Shown here in pieces: positions 54,802 through 63,950 of a stretch of 64,000 nt of DNA; positions within the stretch are counted from its first letter, which is position 1; each line of letters starts with the position of its first letter. The notes under the pieces were generated by a model that saw only the letters and a list, made by a program, of their open reading frames with translations, ran no database searches and was not told the DNA's origin. This stretch comes from Polaribacter sp. L3A8 (lineage in GTDB: Bacteria; Bacteroidota; Bacteroidia; Flavobacteriales; Flavobacteriaceae): positions 3,454,501 to 3,518,500 of the forward strand of contig NZ_CP047026.1 of NCBI RefSeq assembly GCF_009796785.1, read 5' to 3'. Position numbers and translations under genes: made by a program.

Positions 54802-55410
54802 ATGAAAAAATGGTTAATTCCGGTAATAGTAATATTAGTAATTGTTTTCGGACTTTACAATTGGGGAAAAGGTTTTAATAACGAAGCTGTTGTTTTACAG
54901 GAAGATGCAAAAACAACTTGGTCTAATGTAGAAAGTGCTTACCAACGTAGAAACGATTTAATTGGTAATCTAGTAAAAACAGTACAAGGAGCAGCAGATT
55001 TTGAAAAAGAAACCTTAACAGATGTTATTAATGCAAGAGCAAAAGCAACTTCTGTAAATATAAATGCAGGAGATTTAACACCAGAAAAAATGGCACAATT
55101 TCAACAAGCGCAAGCAGGTATGAGTGGTGCTCTTTCTAAATTATTAGTTTCTGTAGAGCGTTATCCAGAGTTAAAAGCAAATGCAAACTTCTTAGAATTA
55201 CAAAGTCAATTAGAAGGAACAGAAAATAGAATTAACGTTGCCAGAGATCGTTTTAATGAAGGGGTAAACGGTTATAATAAGCATATAAAAGTGTTTCCAA
55301 ATTCTTTGTTAGCAGGAATGTTTAATTTTGATGAAATGGATCGTTTTAAAGCAAACGCAGGATCGGAAAATGCACCTGATGTAAACTTTGATTTTAACAA
55401 GAAAAAATAA
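54802..55410 (+). CDS. LemA-family protein
   Basis: A 202-residue membrane-anchored helical protein. A single N-terminal helix (about 5-23: LIPVIVILVIVFGLY) is followed by the LemA core: WSNVESAYQRRNDLIGNLVKTVQGAADFEKETL, TDVINARAKAT, LSKLLVSVERYPELKANANFLELQSQLEGTENRI and VARDRFNEGVNGYN. The function of LemA is poorly known; it accumulates with membrane or heat stress proteins in other bacteria. It is 5 bases before the first TPM gene, an arrangement repeated in many bacteria. Confidence 0.9.
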   Translation: MKKWLIPVIVILVIVFGLYNWGKGFNNEAVVLQEDAKTTWSNVESAYQRRNDLIGNLVKTVQGAADFEKETLTDVINARAKATSVNINAGDLTPEKMAQFQQAQAGMSGALSKLLVSVERYPELKANANFLELQSQLEGTENRINVARDRFNEGVNGYNKHIKVFPNSLLAGMFNFDEMDRFKANAGSENAPDVNFDFNKKK

Positions 55411-55415
55411 GAAAA

Positions 55416-55853
55416 ATGTCTAAGGTAGAAGCATTTCTTTCTCCAGAAGAAGAACAAGAAATTATTTCTGCGATTAGAGTTGCAGAGAAAAATACTTCTG
55501 GCGAAATTCGTATACATATTGAGGCTTCCACAGAGAAGAATCATGACAAGAGAGCGTTAGAAGTATTTCATCTGCTAAAAATGAACAACACTAAAGATGA
55601 TAATGCGGTGTTAATTTACGTTGCCGTAAAAGACAAAAAATTTGTTATTTATGGTGATAAAGGAATTAATAAAGTAGTTCCTACAGATTTTTGGAATACC
55701 ACAAAAGATGTGATGCAAAATCATTTTAAAAAGGGTGATTTTAAACAAGGAATTGTAGACGGAATTTTAAAAGCAGGAGAAGAATTACAAGCTCATTTTC
55801 CTTGGCAAATTGATGATGAAGATGAACTTTCTAATGAGATTTCTAAAGGATGA
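55416..55853 (+). CDS. TPM-domain protein (soluble)
   Basis: A 145-residue protein that is one TPM_phosphatase domain without signal peptide or membrane helix: LSPEEEQEIISAIRVAEKNTSGEIRIHIE, VFHLLKMNNTKDDNAVLIYVAVKDKKFVIYGDKGI and FWNTTKDVMQNHFKKGDFKQGIVDGI. The TPM domain appears in photosystem maintenance in plants and in bacterial membrane proteins; an acid-phosphatase activity was proposed but not settled. Its last 4 bases overlap the next TPM gene (ATGA), so the two are translationally coupled. Confidence 0.88.
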   Translation: MSKVEAFLSPEEEQEIISAIRVAEKNTSGEIRIHIEASTEKNHDKRALEVFHLLKMNNTKDDNAVLIYVAVKDKKFVIYGDKGINKVVPTDFWNTTKDVMQNHFKKGDFKQGIVDGILKAGEELQAHFPWQIDDEDELSNEISKG

Positions 55854-56695
55854 ATTTAAAAAAAGTTTACAGTTTTCGATTTTCAGTTTCTAGTAAAAAG
55901 GCATTTACTTTACTTGCTTTTTTATGTACGTTAAGTCTTTTTTCTCAAGGATTTAAAATTCCAGAAACGCCTAAATTTCAAACAAGTGTTTATGATTATG
56001 TTGGGTTACTTACTCCGAATCAGAAAACGAGTTTAGAAAGTAAATTAGTACGTTATTCAGATACTACATCTACCCAAATTGTAATAGCTATTATTGCATC
56101 CACCGAAGGTGAGAATATTAGTTATTTAGCCGCAAATTGGGGTGAGAAATGGGGGATAGGAGATGCAGCAAAAGACAATGGTGTTTTAATATTGTTGGCT
56201 CAGAATGATAAAAAAATTGCAATTCAAGCAGGTAGAGGAACAGAACATGTATTAACTGATTTTCAATCGAAAAGAATTATTGAAAGAGTAATTATTCCTG
56301 AGTTTAAAAGAGGAGGTTTTTATAGCGGTTTAGACAAGGGATCTGATTATGTTTTTAAAACCTTAAACGGAGAGTTTGAAGGTACTCGCCAAAAAGAAGC
56401 TGATGGATTTGATCCTGGAATTATCATTTTTATCATAATCATTATTATCTTTTTTATTTTAATTTCTAGAGGAAATAAAAATAACGGAAGTGGTGGTAGA
56501 GGTTTTAGAAGAGGTTCTATTGCAGATACTATTTTCGATGCCATTATTTTAAGTAATGCAGGTAGAGGTGGCGGAAGCTTTGGCGGCGGCGGTTTTGGAG
56601 GGTCTTCTGGAGGAGGCAGTTTTGGAGGCGGTGGCTTTGGTGGAGGCTTCGGTGGCGGTAGTTTTGGTGGAGGTGGCGCTTCTGGAGGCTGGTAA
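55850..56695 (+). CDS. Membrane-anchored TPM-domain protein with Gly-rich tail
   Basis: A 281-residue YgcG-like protein. The N-terminal signal (about 18-34) leads into a TPM domain (about 40-165: VYDYVGLLTPNQKTSLESKL, TQIVIAIIASTEGENISYLAANWGEKWGIG, NGVLILLAQNDKKIAIQAGRG). One transmembrane helix follows (about 186-203: IIIFIIIIIIFFILIS) and then a tail made almost wholly of Gly, Ser and Phe (GGGSFGGGGFGG units) to the C-terminus GGW. The start overlaps the preceding TPM gene. LemA-TPM-TPM is a conserved set, presumably acting together at the inner membrane. Confidence 0.9.
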   Translation: MNLKKVYSFRFSVSSKKAFTLLAFLCTLSLFSQGFKIPETPKFQTSVYDYVGLLTPNQKTSLESKLVRYSDTTSTQIVIAIIASTEGENISYLAANWGEKWGIGDAAKDNGVLILLAQNDKKIAIQAGRGTEHVLTDFQSKRIIERVIIPEFKRGGFYSGLDKGSDYVFKTLNGEFEGTRQKEADGFDPGIIIFIIIIIIFFILISRGNKNNGSGGRGFRRGSIADTIFDAIILSNAGRGGGSFGGGGFGGSSGGGSFGGGGFGGGFGGGSFGGGGASGGW

Positions 56696-56820
56696 TAAAC
56701 AGGTCTTTTACTTTTTTTAGAAATAAAATTCATAGTACATAAAAATAAAATTAAAAATGAGTCCCTTCTGGTTTTACAAAAACTAGAAGGGCTTGTTTAT
56801 TAACACACAAAAGGTTCTTT

Positions 56821-57666
56821 ATGAAAAAAATAGTTATTGTTTTTAGTTTCTTACTCTCTGTTTCTTGTCAGAATTTTGGCAGTTTAAAACTTATTTCAGA
56901 TTTATCGAAAGACTTAGAAGAAGTTTCTGGTACAGAAGTAGTTTCTAATTCAGATTTAATTTGGATGTTAAATGATGGTGGAAATAAGCCTAAAATTTAT
57001 GGGGTTTCTTCTAGAGGAAGCATCGAAAAAGAGCTTACCATAAAAGAAAAAAATAACGATTGGGAAGATTTAACTTCTGATGAAGATGGAAACCTTTATA
57101 TAGGTGATTTTGGAAACAATGATAGCAAAAGGAAAAACCTTGTTATTCTAAAAGTAAATCATGAAGATTTAACAAGTGATAAAAAAGTAAAAGTAGAAAA
57201 AATTAAGTTTTATTACCCTAATCAAACAAAATTTCCACCTAAAAAGAAGCAACTTTTTTTTGATGCAGAATCTTTCTTTTACTATAAGAACTCGCTTTAC
57301 GTTTTTACAAAAAGTAGAGTAAAAAGTAAATTCGGAAAAACTTCTTTATATCGAATTCCTGCCAAGGAAGGAGAATATGAAGCTCAATTTATTTCTGAAT
57401 TTAATAATTGTGATGAAATGGATTGTTGGATTACTTCTGCCGATATTTCTAATGATGGGAGTAAAGTGGCATTGTTATCACCATCTTATGTTCTTCTTTT
57501 TTCTGATTATAAAGACGATGATTTTTTATCAGGAAAATTCACGAAGATTCATTTAAAGTACAGTTCTCAAAAAGAAGGAATTACTTTTAAAGACAATAAC
57601 ACCTTGCTAATTACCGATGAAAAAGCACATGGTGCTGGTGGTAATTTTTATGAGTTAAAGCTGTAA
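56821..57666 (+). CDS. Lipoprotein with a predicted propeller-like fold (unknown)
   Basis: A 281-residue lipoprotein: signal MKKIVIVFSFLLSVSCQN, Cys about residue 16. The mature chain resembles SdiA-regulated or esterase-like propellers: SKDLEEVSGTEVVSNSDLIW, MLNDGGNKPKIYGV, NDWEDLTSDEDGNLYIGDFGNN, FDAESFFYYKNSLYVFTK, and CDEMDCWITSADISNDGSKVALLS, then ITDEKAHGAGGNFYELKL. The repeated D-x-x-G/N-N and L-Y-x-F strands fit a beta propeller. Two Cys near residue 200 (NCDEMDC) could form a disulfide. Function unknown; it is the first of two exported genes here. Confidence 0.7.
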   Translation: MKKIVIVFSFLLSVSCQNFGSLKLISDLSKDLEEVSGTEVVSNSDLIWMLNDGGNKPKIYGVSSRGSIEKELTIKEKNNDWEDLTSDEDGNLYIGDFGNNDSKRKNLVILKVNHEDLTSDKKVKVEKIKFYYPNQTKFPPKKKQLFFDAESFFYYKNSLYVFTKSRVKSKFGKTSLYRIPAKEGEYEAQFISEFNNCDEMDCWITSADISNDGSKVALLSPSYVLLFSDYKDDDFLSGKFTKIHLKYSSQKEGITFKDNNTLLITDEKAHGAGGNFYELKL

Positions 57667-58248: not shown

Positions 58249-58623
58249 TTATATAAACTTATAAATTAACAAGCCCCAACCCAAAATTAAGCACAAACCA
58301 CCTAATGGAGTAATTGGGCCTAAAAAGCTTAACTTTTTATTATTGGCAGACGAAATAACCAGACCATAAATAGAAAATGAAAATAAAAGAATTCCAATGA
58401 TAAAGAAGTAAACAATGTAGTTGTCTAAAGTGAGTTGTTGGTTTAATTGAAAACCTAAAACAAGTAAAACGATTGCATGATACATTTGGTATTTTACACC
58501 TGTTTCAAAACTTTGTAATTGATCTGTACTTAGTTTTTTCTTTAAAAGATGTGCTCCGAATGCGCCAAAAACTACTGCTGTTAACCCAAAAATTGCTCCT
58601 GAAATTAATGCTAATTTATCCAT
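58249..58623 (-). CDS. DUF423 (YgdD-like) membrane protein
   Basis: A 124-residue protein with four hydrophobic helices (about 5-25, 45-60, 68-88 and 101-120). The DUF423 signature is clear: SGAIFGLTAVVFGAFGAHLLKKKLS, SFETGVKYQMYHAIVLLVLGF and PLGGLCLILGWGLL. The family is widespread and uncharacterised. It starts 6 bases after the stop of the large metallophosphatase gene upstream and so is probably cotranscribed with it. Confidence 0.9.
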   Translation of the reverse strand: MDKLALISGAIFGLTAVVFGAFGAHLLKKKLSTDQLQSFETGVKYQMYHAIVLLVLGFQLNQQLTLDNYIVYFFIIGILLFSFSIYGLVISSANNKKLSFLGPITPLGGLCLILGWGLLIYKFI

Positions 58624-58629
58624 AGTTTG

Positions 58630-61600
58630 TTAAAAATTGAATCCTAAATTAAATGTAACTCTTAAACCATCATCACTATTAAAAGCACCAATATTTGCTA
58701 CTAACATATTTGCAGCATTAAAGAAAACGCCTCCTCCAAAAGAGGTGTTAAATTTACTGTTGTTTAATGTTGTATTATCTTGTCCCCAAATAGTTCCGTA
58801 ATCAAACCCACTATAAATACCCATGTTTAAAGGTACAATACTTGTTTTAAACTTACTTAAAAGTAAACGTAGGTCTGTAGATTGATAAATGGAGTTTTTA
58901 CCCGTAAATCGTTGGTTTCTAAAACCTCTTAAACCATCATTTCCACCAATGCTTGCAGCTTGATAAAACTCGTAAGAATCCCCAAAATTAAAATGACTTT
59001 TTACTTTAGTTGCTAAGACTAATTTTCCGCTAGACACTAATTTATGATCAAAAGAAATAGCAGGAATTAAGTACCCAAAATTGTTGTCATTATTTAAGTT
59101 AGAAGTAAATCCTACTTTTAGAGATGTTTTTATCCCCATTGTTGGAAAAGCATTATTATCTACATTTTCGAATTCGTAGCCCGCTTCTGTATTTATAAAT
59201 TGTTGATTGCTAAAAATAGTAGAATTTGAATCAAACTCTTCAAGTATATATCTAAAGTCGGTTTGTTCTACTTTATAGTTTTGCAGGTTAACACCAATTT
59301 TAATTTTTCCACCCAAATCTCCTTTCCAATGCACAAAAGAACCGGCTGTAATTTCTCTTATTCGAACCCTATTGTAGTCCTCTTCTTTTTCTTCATCGTT
59401 TGCATTAAGGTTTATAGAATTATTTCCTATTCCAAAATAGTTCATTGCAAAATTAGGACTCGTAAAACGTGCATTTATACCAAGATTCCAATTCTTAAAA
59501 ACGTTTGCAAACTCGCTTGAATAATTCAGTTCAAAACCACTTGTAGCAAAATAATAAGAAGCATTTAAAGTGTGTTGCGACGTAAATGGGTTTCTCTCAA
59601 AACCATAAGCAGTGTATACGTTAGAAATCCCTATTTTTAAACCATCATCCGGATTAAAGCCAATTGTTGGTGTTATTAAAAATTGATTGTTTTTAAGCTT
59701 TCTGTAATCATAGATATTTGTTTCGTAATCATCCGTCAGTTTTCTGTTTCCTTTATTGGTGATAAACGTGTTTTTCTTCGATTTGTAATCGTATATTTTT
59801 ACTTTTTTACCGTTTATAATATTGTAAATATCATTGTTTTGTCCGCCAATAATTCTAACCTTAATTAAGTTTCTATCTTCTCCTTTTACTACAAAATGAT
59901 CATCATCATCTAAACCATAAATCCAAATTTCTTTGGTTTTAGATTTGTTATATGTTCGTTCATGAAAAACAGGGCCTTTTTCTCCTTTTATAATACGATA
60001 TCCTATAATTTTTGTGCTACCGTTAGGTAATCTATCAATATCAAACCAATCATCTTTATTTGTTCCCTTTATTACCTGAAACTTATTGATATGATCAAAA
60101 TAAGTATCAGAAATTTTCTGTAAATTTCTTCTTCTGCCTTGTAGTTTTGTTTTTATTTCTGCCACTGTTTTATCTCTTACTTCAACAGGGAAATTAGTAA
60201 AAGCGTCGTCTATTATTGCATCTGTAAGATGTGTCGTTATCATTTTTACTTGTGCATCCCAATCGGCTTTAGTTGCTTTTGTAATTAATGCCATGTCTAA
60301 AGGATACGGTTCTAAATTAAACCATTTAGGGCTATTTAATTCTTCTTCGTAAGACTGCATTAAACGTAAAGTGGGTATTATTTTTGTAGCAATACTTAAC
60401 AAGAATCCATCACCAAAAATAGAAAATGCCTGGTCTCTATCTCTAGGAACTGGTCTATAAATCGTTTGTTCTCCTTCTTCAAATTCAGCCCATCTCCATT
60501 GGTCTTCATGTCTATCCCAATCTCCAATTAACATATCAAACAAACGCGCTCTTATGTAAGATTTTTCGTCTAAAATATGATTTTCGTTTTTATTTAATTT
60601 CTTCAATAAATCGTCTGTACTAATTACTTTATCAGAAAAACCAAAGCTTTCTTTGTCTCCATGCCCAGAGGCAGCACGTTCTTCAATCATGTATAATTCG
60701 TCTCCAAATTCATCATTAAAACTGCCTAAACTATTTTGTTTAGGAATGTAATATAAAACAGGGTTTGTATGATAAATGCCAACCGCGTCAGACAATTTAC
60801 CAATGGTAAAAGGCGCATATGGGTGCGAGCCTGTAAAAACATCACTTAATAAATCTTCTGTAGCCGTATCATTAAATTGACCTTCTATATATTGATCTTT
60901 AAAAGCCACTGCTTGTAAATATTGTACTGCATTTTTACGTAAGGCACGCATTACATATTCTCTTCCTTTTTTATCTTCTAATCTTAAAGATTTAGATTGA
61001 TGACCGCCACCTTTTCTAACGGGTTTTAAACCACCAAAAAGCGTGTCTAAAGCTACTGTTGGTGAAATTACTTCTGTACCAAAATATTTTCTGTAACGTT
61101 TTCCCCATAAAAAACAGTAAACGCCGCTTTTATCAACCTCTTCTTTGGTGTAAATAGAAGATTTTTTCTCTGTAATGTTATTTTTAGGAAACGCAGTATC
61201 GTTTTTCTTTTCATTTGCTGGTAAAACGGCTGTTTCATAAACAACTGTATCATCTTTTACAGCATAAAAACGAACGTTAGAAGAACCGTCTTTGTAAATG
61301 TCTAATTTAGCAAAACCTTGCGCTGCATACGTAAATTTAGCATTACCGGTTAATTTAGTTGGTGTTGTTTTAGAGCCAGAACCACTAACTATTTGCGGAA
61401 GATTGTCTTCTACTATGTATTGTAAATTATGATCGTGACCAGAAACAAAAATAGTTTTATCATTCTCTTGAGAAAGCGTTATAATACGTTTTCTAAGCTC
61501 ATTGTATTTTTTATTTTGAATGTCGGTATTTGAAAGTCCAGATGTTTTTCTAATTAAATTTTTAAGAGAACCTAAAATTGGTAATGGATTTGTATGACTC

Positions 61601-62313
61601 TTAAAAGAGTATTTTCCTCCATGAGAACCGTTTGTAAACATTGGGTGATGCAGCGCTACGATGGTTGTTTTTCCTCTTGCCTTTTTGATTAAGCCTTCAA
61701 ACTCATCAAAGAATTTAGATCTTGTTTTAATTTCACATTCATCATTTATTGTTGGATGCTTGTCCCAATTTGTTAAATACCAATGTGTGTCTACAATAAT
61801 TAAAACAATGTCATCAGAAATATTAACTTTTTCTAACGGACAACCATTATTCGGTAAAAAAGCTGATTTTCCCAATGCTTTTTCAACTAGTTTTTCTTCT
61901 CTTTTTAGGCCATCTAAACCATGATACCAATCATGATTACCAGGAATAAATATAGATTTTCCTTTAAATTTCTTAGCAACATTGGTTTGTGCTTCAATTC
62001 TTCTTTTGGCTAAAGGATAGTTTTTAGATGATTTTTTTGGAATACCGGTTTCATACACATTGTCTCCTAAAAAAAGTAAAGTGGACTTTTCTGAAGCGTT
62101 TTTAATATGCTTTTTTAAATATTTTAAAGCAGGTGAATCTTCTTCTAATGTTGAGTTTCCTGCGTCTCCAATTAAATAAAAAGTATGTTCAATTTTAGAA
62201 CTATCCTTTTTAACTACTTTATGTTGGTTTTCTGCAATTTGTTTTTTTATGGTTGCACAAGCAGAAATCAATAAAAAAAGTAGAGAAAGTAATGAGTATT
62301 TGAATAATTTCAT
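58630..62313 (-). CDS. Metallophosphatase / kinase-like / outer-membrane barrel fusion lipoprotein
   Basis: A 1227-residue exported protein with three parts. A lipoprotein signal (LFLLISACAT, Cys19) leads to a calcineurin-like phosphatase (about 45-345) with all metal motifs: LIGDAGN (Asp50), LGDNVY (Asp84), GNHDW (125-129), LHHP (221-224) and SGHDHN (291-296). A central region (about 425-750) has SLRLEDKKGREYVMRALRK, LIGDWDRHEDQWRW (595-608) and PVPRDRDQAF (621-630), resembling CotH/HipA/FAM20-type kinase catalytic motifs. A GLDDDDHFVV/GGQNNDIYN stretch (800-835) follows. The last about 340 residues are a BamA-like barrel (GNDGLRGFRNQRFTG; terminal FNLGFNF). Substrate unknown. Confidence 0.85.
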   Translation of the reverse strand: MKLFKYSLLSLLFLLISACATIKKQIAENQHKVVKKDSSKIEHTFYLIGDAGNSTLEEDSPALKYLKKHIKNASEKSTLLFLGDNVYETGIPKKSSKNYPLAKRRIEAQTNVAKKFKGKSIFIPGNHDWYHGLDGLKREEKLVEKALGKSAFLPNNGCPLEKVNISDDIVLIIVDTHWYLTNWDKHPTINDECEIKTRSKFFDEFEGLIKKARGKTTIVALHHPMFTNGSHGGKYSFKSHTNPLPILGSLKNLIRKTSGLSNTDIQNKKYNELRKRIITLSQENDKTIFVSGHDHNLQYIVEDNLPQIVSGSGSKTTPTKLTGNAKFTYAAQGFAKLDIYKDGSSNVRFYAVKDDTVVYETAVLPANEKKNDTAFPKNNITEKKSSIYTKEEVDKSGVYCFLWGKRYRKYFGTEVISPTVALDTLFGGLKPVRKGGGHQSKSLRLEDKKGREYVMRALRKNAVQYLQAVAFKDQYIEGQFNDTATEDLLSDVFTGSHPYAPFTIGKLSDAVGIYHTNPVLYYIPKQNSLGSFNDEFGDELYMIEERAASGHGDKESFGFSDKVISTDDLLKKLNKNENHILDEKSYIRARLFDMLIGDWDRHEDQWRWAEFEEGEQTIYRPVPRDRDQAFSIFGDGFLLSIATKIIPTLRLMQSYEEELNSPKWFNLEPYPLDMALITKATKADWDAQVKMITTHLTDAIIDDAFTNFPVEVRDKTVAEIKTKLQGRRRNLQKISDTYFDHINKFQVIKGTNKDDWFDIDRLPNGSTKIIGYRIIKGEKGPVFHERTYNKSKTKEIWIYGLDDDDHFVVKGEDRNLIKVRIIGGQNNDIYNIINGKKVKIYDYKSKKNTFITNKGNRKLTDDYETNIYDYRKLKNNQFLITPTIGFNPDDGLKIGISNVYTAYGFERNPFTSQHTLNASYYFATSGFELNYSSEFANVFKNWNLGINARFTSPNFAMNYFGIGNNSINLNANDEEKEEDYNRVRIREITAGSFVHWKGDLGGKIKIGVNLQNYKVEQTDFRYILEEFDSNSTIFSNQQFINTEAGYEFENVDNNAFPTMGIKTSLKVGFTSNLNNDNNFGYLIPAISFDHKLVSSGKLVLATKVKSHFNFGDSYEFYQAASIGGNDGLRGFRNQRFTGKNSIYQSTDLRLLLSKFKTSIVPLNMGIYSGFDYGTIWGQDNTTLNNSKFNTSFGGGVFFNAANMLVANIGAFNSDDGLRVTFNLGFNF

Positions 62314-62332: not shown

Positions 62333-62926
62333 TTAAATTGATTTTTTATAATGTAGCAAATCTTCTTTGGTATCTATATCAAAGAAATTGGTGGATTGTT
62401 TGGGGCAAATAATTTCGTTTTTTCTTTTGTTGATGAATTCTTTTGCTCCTTTATCTCCTTCAATCAATAATAAATCGGAAAAATATTTTTCAGGAAAAAT
62501 AGCTGGAACCCCTAATTTTTCTCCATAATTGGAAGCCATAATTACCTCTTTATTTTGTTGAAATAAATGCAACATTTCTTCTAAATACCGAACTTCAATT
62601 GCGGGTTGATCTGCTAATAAAATAAAAATACCATCAAAATGATATTTCTTCTTTTTAAAATAAGTGATTCCGGCAACGATGCTAGAACTCAATCCGTTTT
62701 CGAAATTTTCGTTTTTAATAAATTCGATATTGTTTGTATGTATTTTAGATTTTATTTTATCCGCATTTGCGCCTAAAACACAATAAATTGTTGAAGAAAA
62801 AACAGTTTTAATATTCTCTAAACTTATCTCTAAAAGTGTTTTTTTATTGATTTTTTCTAACTGTTTTATACCATTCATTCTAGATGATTTTCCGGCTGCT
62901 AACACTAAAATTGCAATATTTTTCAT
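62333..62926 (-). CDS. MobA/MocA-like nucleotidyltransferase
   Basis: A 197-residue NTP transferase with LVLAAGKSSRMNGIKQLEKI at the N-terminus (the nucleotide-binding LAAGxSxRMG form), SSSIVAGITYF, FILLADQPAIEVRYLE and the C-terminal FINKRKNEIICPKQSTNFFDIDTKEDL. It fits MocA/MobA-like molybdenum cofactor cytidylyl- or guanylyltransferases. The ATG at 62926 is chosen over a TTG three bases earlier. It lies 4 bases after the xdhC stop, the classical pairing for maturation of xanthine or aldehyde oxidases; those genes would be outside the window. Cytidylyltransferase is the better guess. Confidence 0.88.
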   Translation of the reverse strand: MKNIAILVLAAGKSSRMNGIKQLEKINKKTLLEISLENIKTVFSSTIYCVLGANADKIKSKIHTNNIEFIKNENFENGLSSSIVAGITYFKKKKYHFDGIFILLADQPAIEVRYLEEMLHLFQQNKEVIMASNYGEKLGVPAIFPEKYFSDLLLIEGDKGAKEFINKRKNEIICPKQSTNFFDIDTKEDLLHYKKSI

Positions 62927-62930
62927 CAAT

Positions 62931-63950
62931 TTAGTTGTTTATTTTACCTGTAAGATTTCTTAAAGAAAATGGTTCTTTTTTTCTAATTACAGATAGAATT
63001 TCTGCAACAATAGAAACCGCAATTTCTTCTGGAGTTTGTGCGCCAATATGCAAACCTGCTGGTGTGTAAATATTGTCTAAAAAAGTATCTGAAAGATCTG
63101 GTACAAAATCAAAAAGTTCGTTAAACAAACGTTCTCTTCTATTTGGTGCACCTAAAATACCAATATATTTTGGGGTGTATTCAGACAGTTTTACAACATA
63201 TTTTAAATCTTGTACATAACTATGATTCATAATTACAATGGCAGTATTTTCTTCGATATTTTTAAACTGAATACTTTCTGGAGAATCTCCAATAACTGAA
63301 TTTGCCCCAGGAAAATCTTTTAGTTGTTTGCTATCTTTTGCACAGGTAATTACATCAATTTCCCAACCTAAAGTTGCGGCTACTTTACAGAGTTTAACCG
63401 CGTCATGTTCACCACCAATTATAATCAATCTAAAACTAGGTTGTAAAATTTGAGTGTAAATTGCAACCTCATTTTTATGCTGAAAATTAAAGTGTTTAGA
63501 AAATACAAATTGTGTTTTATTGTTAAAAGTTACTACAGATCCAAAATTGCCAAAAGCTTCATCTTCTTTTGTAAAATGACTGTCAATTTTTATGATTTCT
63601 CTTTTAGAATTAGCATCAGAAAACTGATTTATAAATTCATCAGAAATTAAAAAAGGTTCAATTAAAATATATAAAATACCTTCGCAGCCTAACTTATATC
63701 TACCATCGTAGGTAATCATTTTTGGTTTGTTATCAACAAAAACACTTTTAGCTCTGTGTATAATTTCTTTTTCTACACAGCCACCACTAACGGCACCAAC
63801 AGAATTTAAATCTTCAGAAATTAACATTCTTACTCCCGGTTTTCTATAAGAAGAACCTTCTAAATGGACTACCGTTGCTAATACATTTTTCAATCCTTTT
63901 TGTTGATTGATAACTGCCTGATGGATGATTTCTTTGAGTTCGTGATTCAT
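62931..63950 (-). CDS. XdhC-family molybdoenzyme maturation factor
   Basis: A 339-residue protein of the XdhC/CoxI family, which binds sulfurated molybdenum cofactor and loads it into xanthine-dehydrogenase-type enzymes. The N-terminal XdhC domain (VLATVVHLEGSSYRKPGVRML, VGAVSGGCVEKEII, ITYDGRYKLGCEGILYILIEP) is followed by a Rossmann-type XdhC_C (RLIIIGGEHDAVKLCKVAATLGWEIDVIT) and a C-terminal IYTPAGLHIGAQTPEEIAVSIVAEIL. Cys in SGGC and LGCEG are conserved cofactor contacts. It precedes the MobA-like gene on minus; its upstream partners are cut off by the window end. Confidence 0.92.
   Translation of the reverse strand: MNHELKEIIHQAVINQQKGLKNVLATVVHLEGSSYRKPGVRMLISEDLNSVGAVSGGCVEKEIIHRAKSVFVDNKPKMITYDGRYKLGCEGILYILIEPFLISDEFINQFSDANSKREIIKIDSHFTKEDEAFGNFGSVVTFNNKTQFVFSKHFNFQHKNEVAIYTQILQPSFRLIIIGGEHDAVKLCKVAATLGWEIDVITCAKDSKQLKDFPGANSVIGDSPESIQFKNIEENTAIVIMNHSYVQDLKYVVKLSEYTPKYIGILGAPNRRERLFNELFDFVPDLSDTFLDNIYTPAGLHIGAQTPEEIAVSIVAEILSVIRKKEPFSLRNLTGKINN

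Follow-up and report, generated by a model that had tools for sequence, protein, structure and literature searches.

A predicted kinase-like domain between a phosphatase and an Omp85-type barrel in a putative outer-membrane lipoprotein of Polaribacter sp. L3A8

Introduction

Enzyme domains fused to barrels of the Omp85 superfamily have been described before. In the classification of Heinz and Lithgow 2014 (PMC4104836), the 'Metallo' class consists of PF00149 fused to an Omp85 barrel, and the 'Metallo' barrel is also linked to a 'noNterm' class. For PlpD, the enzyme domain on the Omp85 barrel was shown to stay in the periplasm (PMC11116518). Here we describe a gene of Polaribacter sp. L3A8 that lies in a stretch of 64,000 nucleotides (contig NZ_CP047026.1, positions 3,454,501 to 3,518,500), hereafter the window. 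The open reading frame (ORF) at 58630-62313 on the minus strand encodes 1227 amino acids, according to the window ORF list and the translation. With PF00149 N-terminal to the Omp85 barrel, the protein fits the 'Metallo' class of 2014. Between the two lies a domain with a predicted kinase-like fold and a conserved candidate catalytic site.

Results

The central block is predicted to have a protein-kinase-like (PKL) fold. Its model reached a pLDDT of 85 and a pTM of 0.86, and the 50 matches listed by VIA-align were all kinase-like; a family absent from such a list may still be a relative. CtkA was the top Foldseek match (TM-score 0.39-0.43 by query and 0.50-0.56 by target, rmsd 7.5-9.0). In a search of a viral library the top match was named PI3/4-kinase domain, the remaining names there being mixed. 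A first-pass annotation of this DNA had proposed a kinase-like fold to be sought in fold libraries, and the predicted model and the searches agree with it, pointing to relatedness with CotH, HipA/CtkA, PI4K-II and Fam20.

In profile alignments the central domain scored 33.8 against HipA and 37.6 against CotH, compared with 34.3 for CotH against HipA itself and 14-25 for the control pairs (n=4). The central domain aligned in register with the loop of HipA and with the DxD motif of CotH. Candidates for the beta-3 lysine, the catalytic-loop aspartate and the metal-binding aspartate are all present (K460, D600 and D625), Lys460 being a candidate by position and conservation only.

Scanned directly against Pfam and NCBIfam, the central block (the query, and in Pfam also 40 members) received no family assignment, and the Pfam scan of the query found nothing over residues 400-780 at E <= 1. 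CotH (PF08757) was matched by one of the 40 members at E 0.014, amid chance matches of similar E, and not by the query; HipA_C (PF07804) was likewise matched by one member, at E 0.21. Fam20C was absent from the 23 families matched by any of the 40 members at E <= 10. Since the family cut-offs tested were not reached, we do not file the domain under CotH, HipA or Fam20C. We also considered Lani_1194, a kinase-like family with members in Flavobacteriales, and dropped it, since it is described with a methyltransferase fusion and with Arg replacing Lys.

The candidate site is unchanged in all full-length proteins. K460, D598, D600, R601, H602, Q605, D625 and D627 are identical in 128 of 128 distinct proteins that combine the three parts, counting the query, which fills two of the 129 alignment rows; most of these proteins come from one family. 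This rules out a chance match of the motifs. The phosphatase metal-ligand columns are kept in 123-128 of the 129 rows. Across 75 diverse rows, K460 is found in 69, D600 in 66, H602 in 61, D625 in 66 and D627 in 64. K460, D600 and D625 occur together in 14 of 26 distinct proteins with central domain and barrel, and in 10 of 12 with the central domain only.

A quick tree (SH-aLRT only) was built from 70 chosen rows, which include 4 of the loci L072-L151 and 9 of L003-L031 and leave out the partial match L048. All 33 full-length rows (query twice; 12 family codes) are intact at the candidate site, and the losses are confined to rows without the phosphatase (13/37), so that the site is intact in 33/33 rows with a phosphatase vs 24/37 without. 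The invariance of Lys460, Asp600, His602, Asp625 and Asp627, on which the first-pass annotation had hinged its proposal, holds for 129/129 full-length rows and does not extend to all rows that lack the phosphatase.

The flanking domains were recovered as first annotated. Pfam Metallophos (PF00149) matches residues 45-295 with 41.4 bits (cut-off 21.5, E 2.8e-10). The predicted fold and the complete metal ligands, including the tyrosine of GDNxY, are both present and point to the purple acid phosphatase type. ShlB matches residues 1120-1182 with 24.4 bits, above the Pfam cut-off of 22.7, and the barrel is assigned 16 strands, as in the Omp85 superfamily; NCBIfam Omp85_fam gave 60 bits, well under 200. 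No POTRA model matched at E <= 1 in Pfam, and in the predicted secondary structure the linker at 746-870 consists of strands without POTRA-like helices.

A script located each motif at the residue first reported for it: GDAG at 49-52, GDNVYE at 83-88, GNHDW at 125-129, HHP at 222-224 and GHDHN at 292-296 in the phosphatase; VMRALRK at 454-460, LIGDWDRHEDQWRW at 595-608 and PVPRDRDQAF at 621-630 in the central block; and GLRGFRNQRF, which we take to be an Omp85 signature, at 1127-1136 in the barrel. The final residue is Phe, also as reported. The N-terminus reads MKLFKYSLLSLLFLLISAC, with a lipobox that ends at Cys19 (counted by eye). Searching the genome with the protein gave a single match, the gene itself. 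Coordinates are collected in Table 1. The Riemerella metallophosphoesterase of Niu et al. 2021 appears as a type IX secretion effector in the review table that lists it, and hence is probably a different protein.

Table 1. Features of the gene and its neighbours, in window coordinates
Feature	Position	Strand	Remarks
Whole gene: lipoprotein with phosphatase, kinase-like domain, beta-rich linker and Omp85 barrel	58630..62313	-	1227 aa
Signal peptide and lipobox LISAC, residues 1-19	62257..62313	-	no acidic residue at the five positions past Cys19
Calcineurin-type / purple-acid-phosphatase-like domain, residues 42-370	61204..62190	-	
Kinase-like (PKL-fold) domain, about residues 400-745	60079..61116	-	predicted fold and profile alignment
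Lys460 codon, candidate beta-3 (ATP/phosphate-binding) lysine	60934..60936	-	129/129 rows of full-length homologues
Candidate catalytic loop LIGDWDRHEDQWRW, residues 595-608 (Asp600, Gln605)	60490..60531	-	HipA NxDxHxKN register; near CotH WD loop
Candidate metal-binding PVPRDRDQAF, residues 621-630 (Asp625, Asp627)	60424..60453	-	aligns with CotH consensus IPyDyDntF; 129/129 rows
Beta-rich linker, residues 746-870, without POTRA-like helices	59704..60078	-	predicted secondary structure
16-stranded Omp85-type barrel, residues 875-1227, terminal Phe	58633..59691	-	
Omp85-type GLRGFRNQRF, residues 1127-1136	58906..58935	-	position located by script
MobA-like NTP transferase gene	62333..62929	-	upstream, 19-base gap, possibly co-transcribed
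XdhC-type gene	62931..63950	-	farther upstream
DUF423 membrane protein gene	58249..58623	-	6 bases downstream
281-aa gene	56821..57666	+	no Pfam match of its own; homologues near the present gene in 53 loci

The central block is widespread. For residues 400-780, 7993 candidates from the database were scored, at least 6502 of which match at E <= 0.001, the nearest named homologue being a Polaribacter staleyi protein with 95% identity over these residues. Among 296 genomes sampled across the phylum the block is present in 111; of two further genomes sampled in the genus of strain L3A8, only one carries it. Database names, where given in the rows listed, are metallophosphoesterase or phosphoesterase, BamA/TamA family or Omp85, membrane protein, hypothetical and, once, 'HipA domain-containing' (relative P0189).

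Three length forms were found: about 1240 aa, about 870 aa without the phosphatase, and 423-570 aa without the barrel. In brief, 128 distinct proteins have phosphatase, central domain and barrel, 26 have central domain and barrel, and 12 have the central domain only. At L039:3751-7797 adjacent co-directional genes encode a kinase-like protein of 545 aa, a phosphatase of 403 aa and a barrel of 395 aa, and L040:1338-5293 mirrors this with 518, 403 and 394 aa. The two loci come from two genomes of one genus. This gene order speaks for phosphatase, kinase-like domain and barrel belonging together.

Some further arrangements were seen. L037:4626-9651 holds three and L038:4733-8078 two side-by-side paralogues of the kinase-like gene, one in each set with DWSRR for DWDRH. 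L032, L033, L034 and L035 encode barrel-less kinase-like proteins (423-425 aa) with an N-terminal hydrophobic anchor. The 619-aa protein at L042:8300-10159, which matches Omp85 only from residue 304 onwards, is encoded beside PPK1 and two kinase-like-barrel genes.

By a simple rule, 106 of the 128 full-length proteins have a lipobox, and several others show CATY-type lipoboxes that the rule missed. Surface-exported lipoproteins of Bacteroidota are defined by an acidic export signal after the lipid-bearing Cys. The query reads C-A-T-I-K-K-Q from this Cys on, with no such signal, and none of the 113 proteins of all forms that have a lipobox by the simple rule shows at least two D/E at +2 to +6; these include 7 of shorter forms, a few of them possibly with false lipoboxes. 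The form with central domain and barrel has a hydrophobic N-terminus without lipobox in 25/26, and four forms of 423/425 aa carry an N-terminal hydrophobic anchor. Lipoboxes, hydrophobic N-termini and anchors therefore all point outside the cytoplasm. Because of Omp85 topology and the PlpD precedent, we favour the periplasmic side, where the enzyme domains very probably lie. Of the two placements first offered, surface or periplasm, the latter is thus preferred, and the former finds no acidic signal in its favour.

PPK1 is often close to the gene. In an unselected count the two are within 20 kb of each other in 32 of the 106 genomes that have both, representing 11/23 families, and within 5 kb in 12 genomes of 8 families. 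GroEL, taken as a control, is within 20 kb in 2/80 genomes (one genus) and within 5 kb in 0/80. Outside families f1 and f2, PPK1 is near in 31/76 vs 2/78 for GroEL. The count covers 137 gene positions in all 111 genomes with a match, PPK1 positions from 54 + 57 genomes (52 of the 57 matched) and GroEL positions from 80 of the 111, 78 of them outside f1 and f2. For the 54 genomes PPK1 was counted among the matches listed, and second copies may be missing. It should be noted that the loci of our cluster survey were partly picked for a nearby PPK1, and the survey gives no frequency.

PF00300 histidine phosphatase genes, presumably SixA-like, recur in the clusters around the gene, as do HD-PycTM and SdiA-regulated genes; in the genome of the window an HD-PycTM gene lies about 18 kb away. 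A family of about 790 aa is near the gene in 51/120 loci (e.g. L090:377-2749), and its scanned member had no Pfam or NCBIfam match. At L217:9648-12705 an SdiA-regulated-cluster gene, a porin-O/P-like gene and a CotH gene stand beside the kinase-like-barrel gene and PPK1; the match to PF07396 (phosphate-selective porin) is barely over its cut-off. Among the 120 loci compared, relatives of the XdhC, MobA-like and DUF423 neighbours adjoin the gene in 7, 7 and 9, respectively. The 281-aa gene had no match in distant loci. One scanned homologue (L098) belongs to the SdiA-regulated family, and, there being no direct match, the tie to SdiA-regulated genes at distant loci rests on this homologue.

Elsewhere in the window, at 54802-56695 (+), a LemA gene precedes two genes with TPM domains, of which the second has a long tail rich in glycine. 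A 128-aa proline-rich ORF at 56347-56733 (-), antisense to this tail, is most likely spurious.

Discussion

On balance, we read the gene as encoding an outer-membrane lipoprotein with a TRAP-type phosphatase, a kinase-fold domain in a candidate phosphotransfer role and a POTRA-less Omp85 barrel as anchor. This draws on computed domains, modelled folds, residue conservation, the three-gene version and the PPK1 proximity across families. In brief, a metal-dependent purple-acid-phosphatase/TRAP-type phosphatase and a kinase-fold domain related to CotH, HipA/CtkA, PI4K-II and Fam20 (candidate residues Lys460, Asp600, Gln605, Asp625 and Asp627) would both face the periplasm, held at the membrane by the barrel. 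The kinase-fold domain would take a phosphoryl group from a locally available donor and place it on a protein, lipid or glycan of the envelope, and the phosphatase would strip phosphate from this substrate or a linked one. The gene order of the family would tie this to polyphosphate and phosphate handling. Phosphotransfer is somewhat more probable than binding only; for a shared or linked substrate we see the two sides as evenly poised. The pairing of phosphatase, kinase-like module and barrel in one envelope protein, as first proposed, is supported by the fold models, the conservation and the split genes of L039 and L040.

Several points weigh against this reading. The periplasm is thought to lack adenosine triphosphate (ATP), and a phosphoryl donor is therefore missing. 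The discussion of PlpD makes the same point about ATP (PMC11116518). The Foldseek matches are only moderate in strength. The hhalign probabilities are low, 14.9% and 18.3%, with CotH-HipA itself at only 8.8%. Sequence searches of solved structures with query and profile gave no usable match, CtkA reaching only E 0.38 in the PDB profile search, where two unrelated chains rank higher. At least one of K460, D600 and D625 is lost in 11/25 central-plus-barrel rows of the tree. The link between phosphatase and intact site comes down to 3 independent pairs, unable to reach significance, and for this reason we do not claim that the intact kinase site depends on the phosphatase. Family f23, mostly at a spacing near 12-13 kb, supplies 18/32 of the PPK1-near genomes, so that independent events are fewer than genomes. 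No PPK1 match was found in the genome of the window; the same holds for 4 more of the 111 genomes that carry the gene. Two of these 4 belong to the family of the window's genome, as does only 1/32 PPK1-near genomes. The genome of the window has three PPK2 genes, none near the gene.

The best surviving alternative, which we hold to be unlikely, is that the kinase-fold domain serves as sensor or scaffold: by binding nucleotide, polyphosphate or a phosphorylated ligand, it would control the barrel or the phosphatase with no phosphotransfer. The lack of periplasmic ATP suits it, as does the persistence of the tree rows that have lost one of the three residues, to which the central-only form adds 2/12. 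Against it, all catalytic residues are retained in 128/128 full-length proteins, a stricter conservation than that of the phosphatase ligands. The domain could also be an enzyme with other chemistry and another co-substrate. AMP transfer by SelO reportedly occurs within the kinase fold, and glutamylation by SidJ is a further precedent, but the loop is HipA-like and the DxD motif CotH-like, and no observation points to a particular other chemistry; we regard this as improbable. Smaller still is the chance of ordinary phosphorus scavenging, with the phosphatase as the working part and the central domain as a structural spacer that connects it to the barrel. The purple-acid-phosphatase-like fold and the phosphate and polyphosphate genes near relatives would fit, but the domain also occurs without the phosphatase (26 + 12 distinct proteins), including barrel-less forms with an intact site, and a spacer is not expected to keep invariant catalytic residues. 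A location of the enzyme domains on the cell surface, where they would draw on extracellular ATP or act on outside substrates, is very improbable: Bacteroidota are generally known to export many lipoproteins there, and the first-pass annotation left the side undecided, but the acidic signal is missing throughout and the N-terminal domain of an Omp85 barrel is normally periplasmic, as the enzyme domain of PlpD was shown to be (PMC11116518).

Returning to the phosphotransfer reading, we speculate, as a long shot, that polyphosphate or another exported phosphoanhydride is the donor at the inner face of the outer membrane. The protein would then be an ATP-free extracytoplasmic (de)phosphorylation machine whose fused phosphatase resets the envelope substrate. 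If so, the PPK1 neighbourhoods in 11 family codes would reflect the donor source, and PPK2 or another source would have to replace PPK1 in genomes without it, such as that of the window.

A kinase fold that faces a compartment thought to be free of ATP is unexpected. This one, with a full candidate catalytic set, is placed at the outer membrane in one third of the sampled genomes (111/296), often fused to a phosphatase, which raises the question of which substrate is phosphorylated, and from which donor, where ATP is not expected. The domain is present in thousands of database proteins; with names for it, for the forms without a barrel and for the three-gene version, the question can be tested on single proteins.

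Comparison with known systems

The phosphatase-barrel combination is already known as the 'Metallo' class (PMC4104836), where the passages concerned take PF00149 as a metalloprotease; we read it as a phosphatase. The main text of that paper holds no words starting with kinase or phosphatase, and those passages do not mention the central domain. The literature searched, which covers neither preprints nor most subscription papers, contained no paper on a kinase-like domain in an Omp85 protein, and what is new within it is how the middle domain is assigned and conserved in its residues, together with the barrel-less forms and the PPK1 link. PlpD, a patatin-Omp85 protein, is likewise an enzyme on an Omp85 barrel kept in the periplasm, but its enzyme is a different one and it has a POTRA domain (PMC11116518), of which the present protein shows none.

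Compared with purple acid phosphatase/TRAP, the present protein is bacterial and membrane-tethered, and its phosphatase is one part of a longer chain. CotH kinases (PF08757) have the DxD consensus IPyDyDntF, which aligns with PVPRDRDQAF of the central domain; their genes are separate, and one adjoins the relative at L217. In HipA/CtkA the GNxDxHxKN-type catalytic loop aligns with GDWDRHEDQW, and HipA is cytoplasmic, unlike the proposed setting of the central domain. PI4K type II and Fam20 kinases are eukaryotic enzymes with 9-13% sequence identity to it. By fold and motifs, the central domain is predicted to resemble a kinase of the CotH/HipA/PI4K type in its working.

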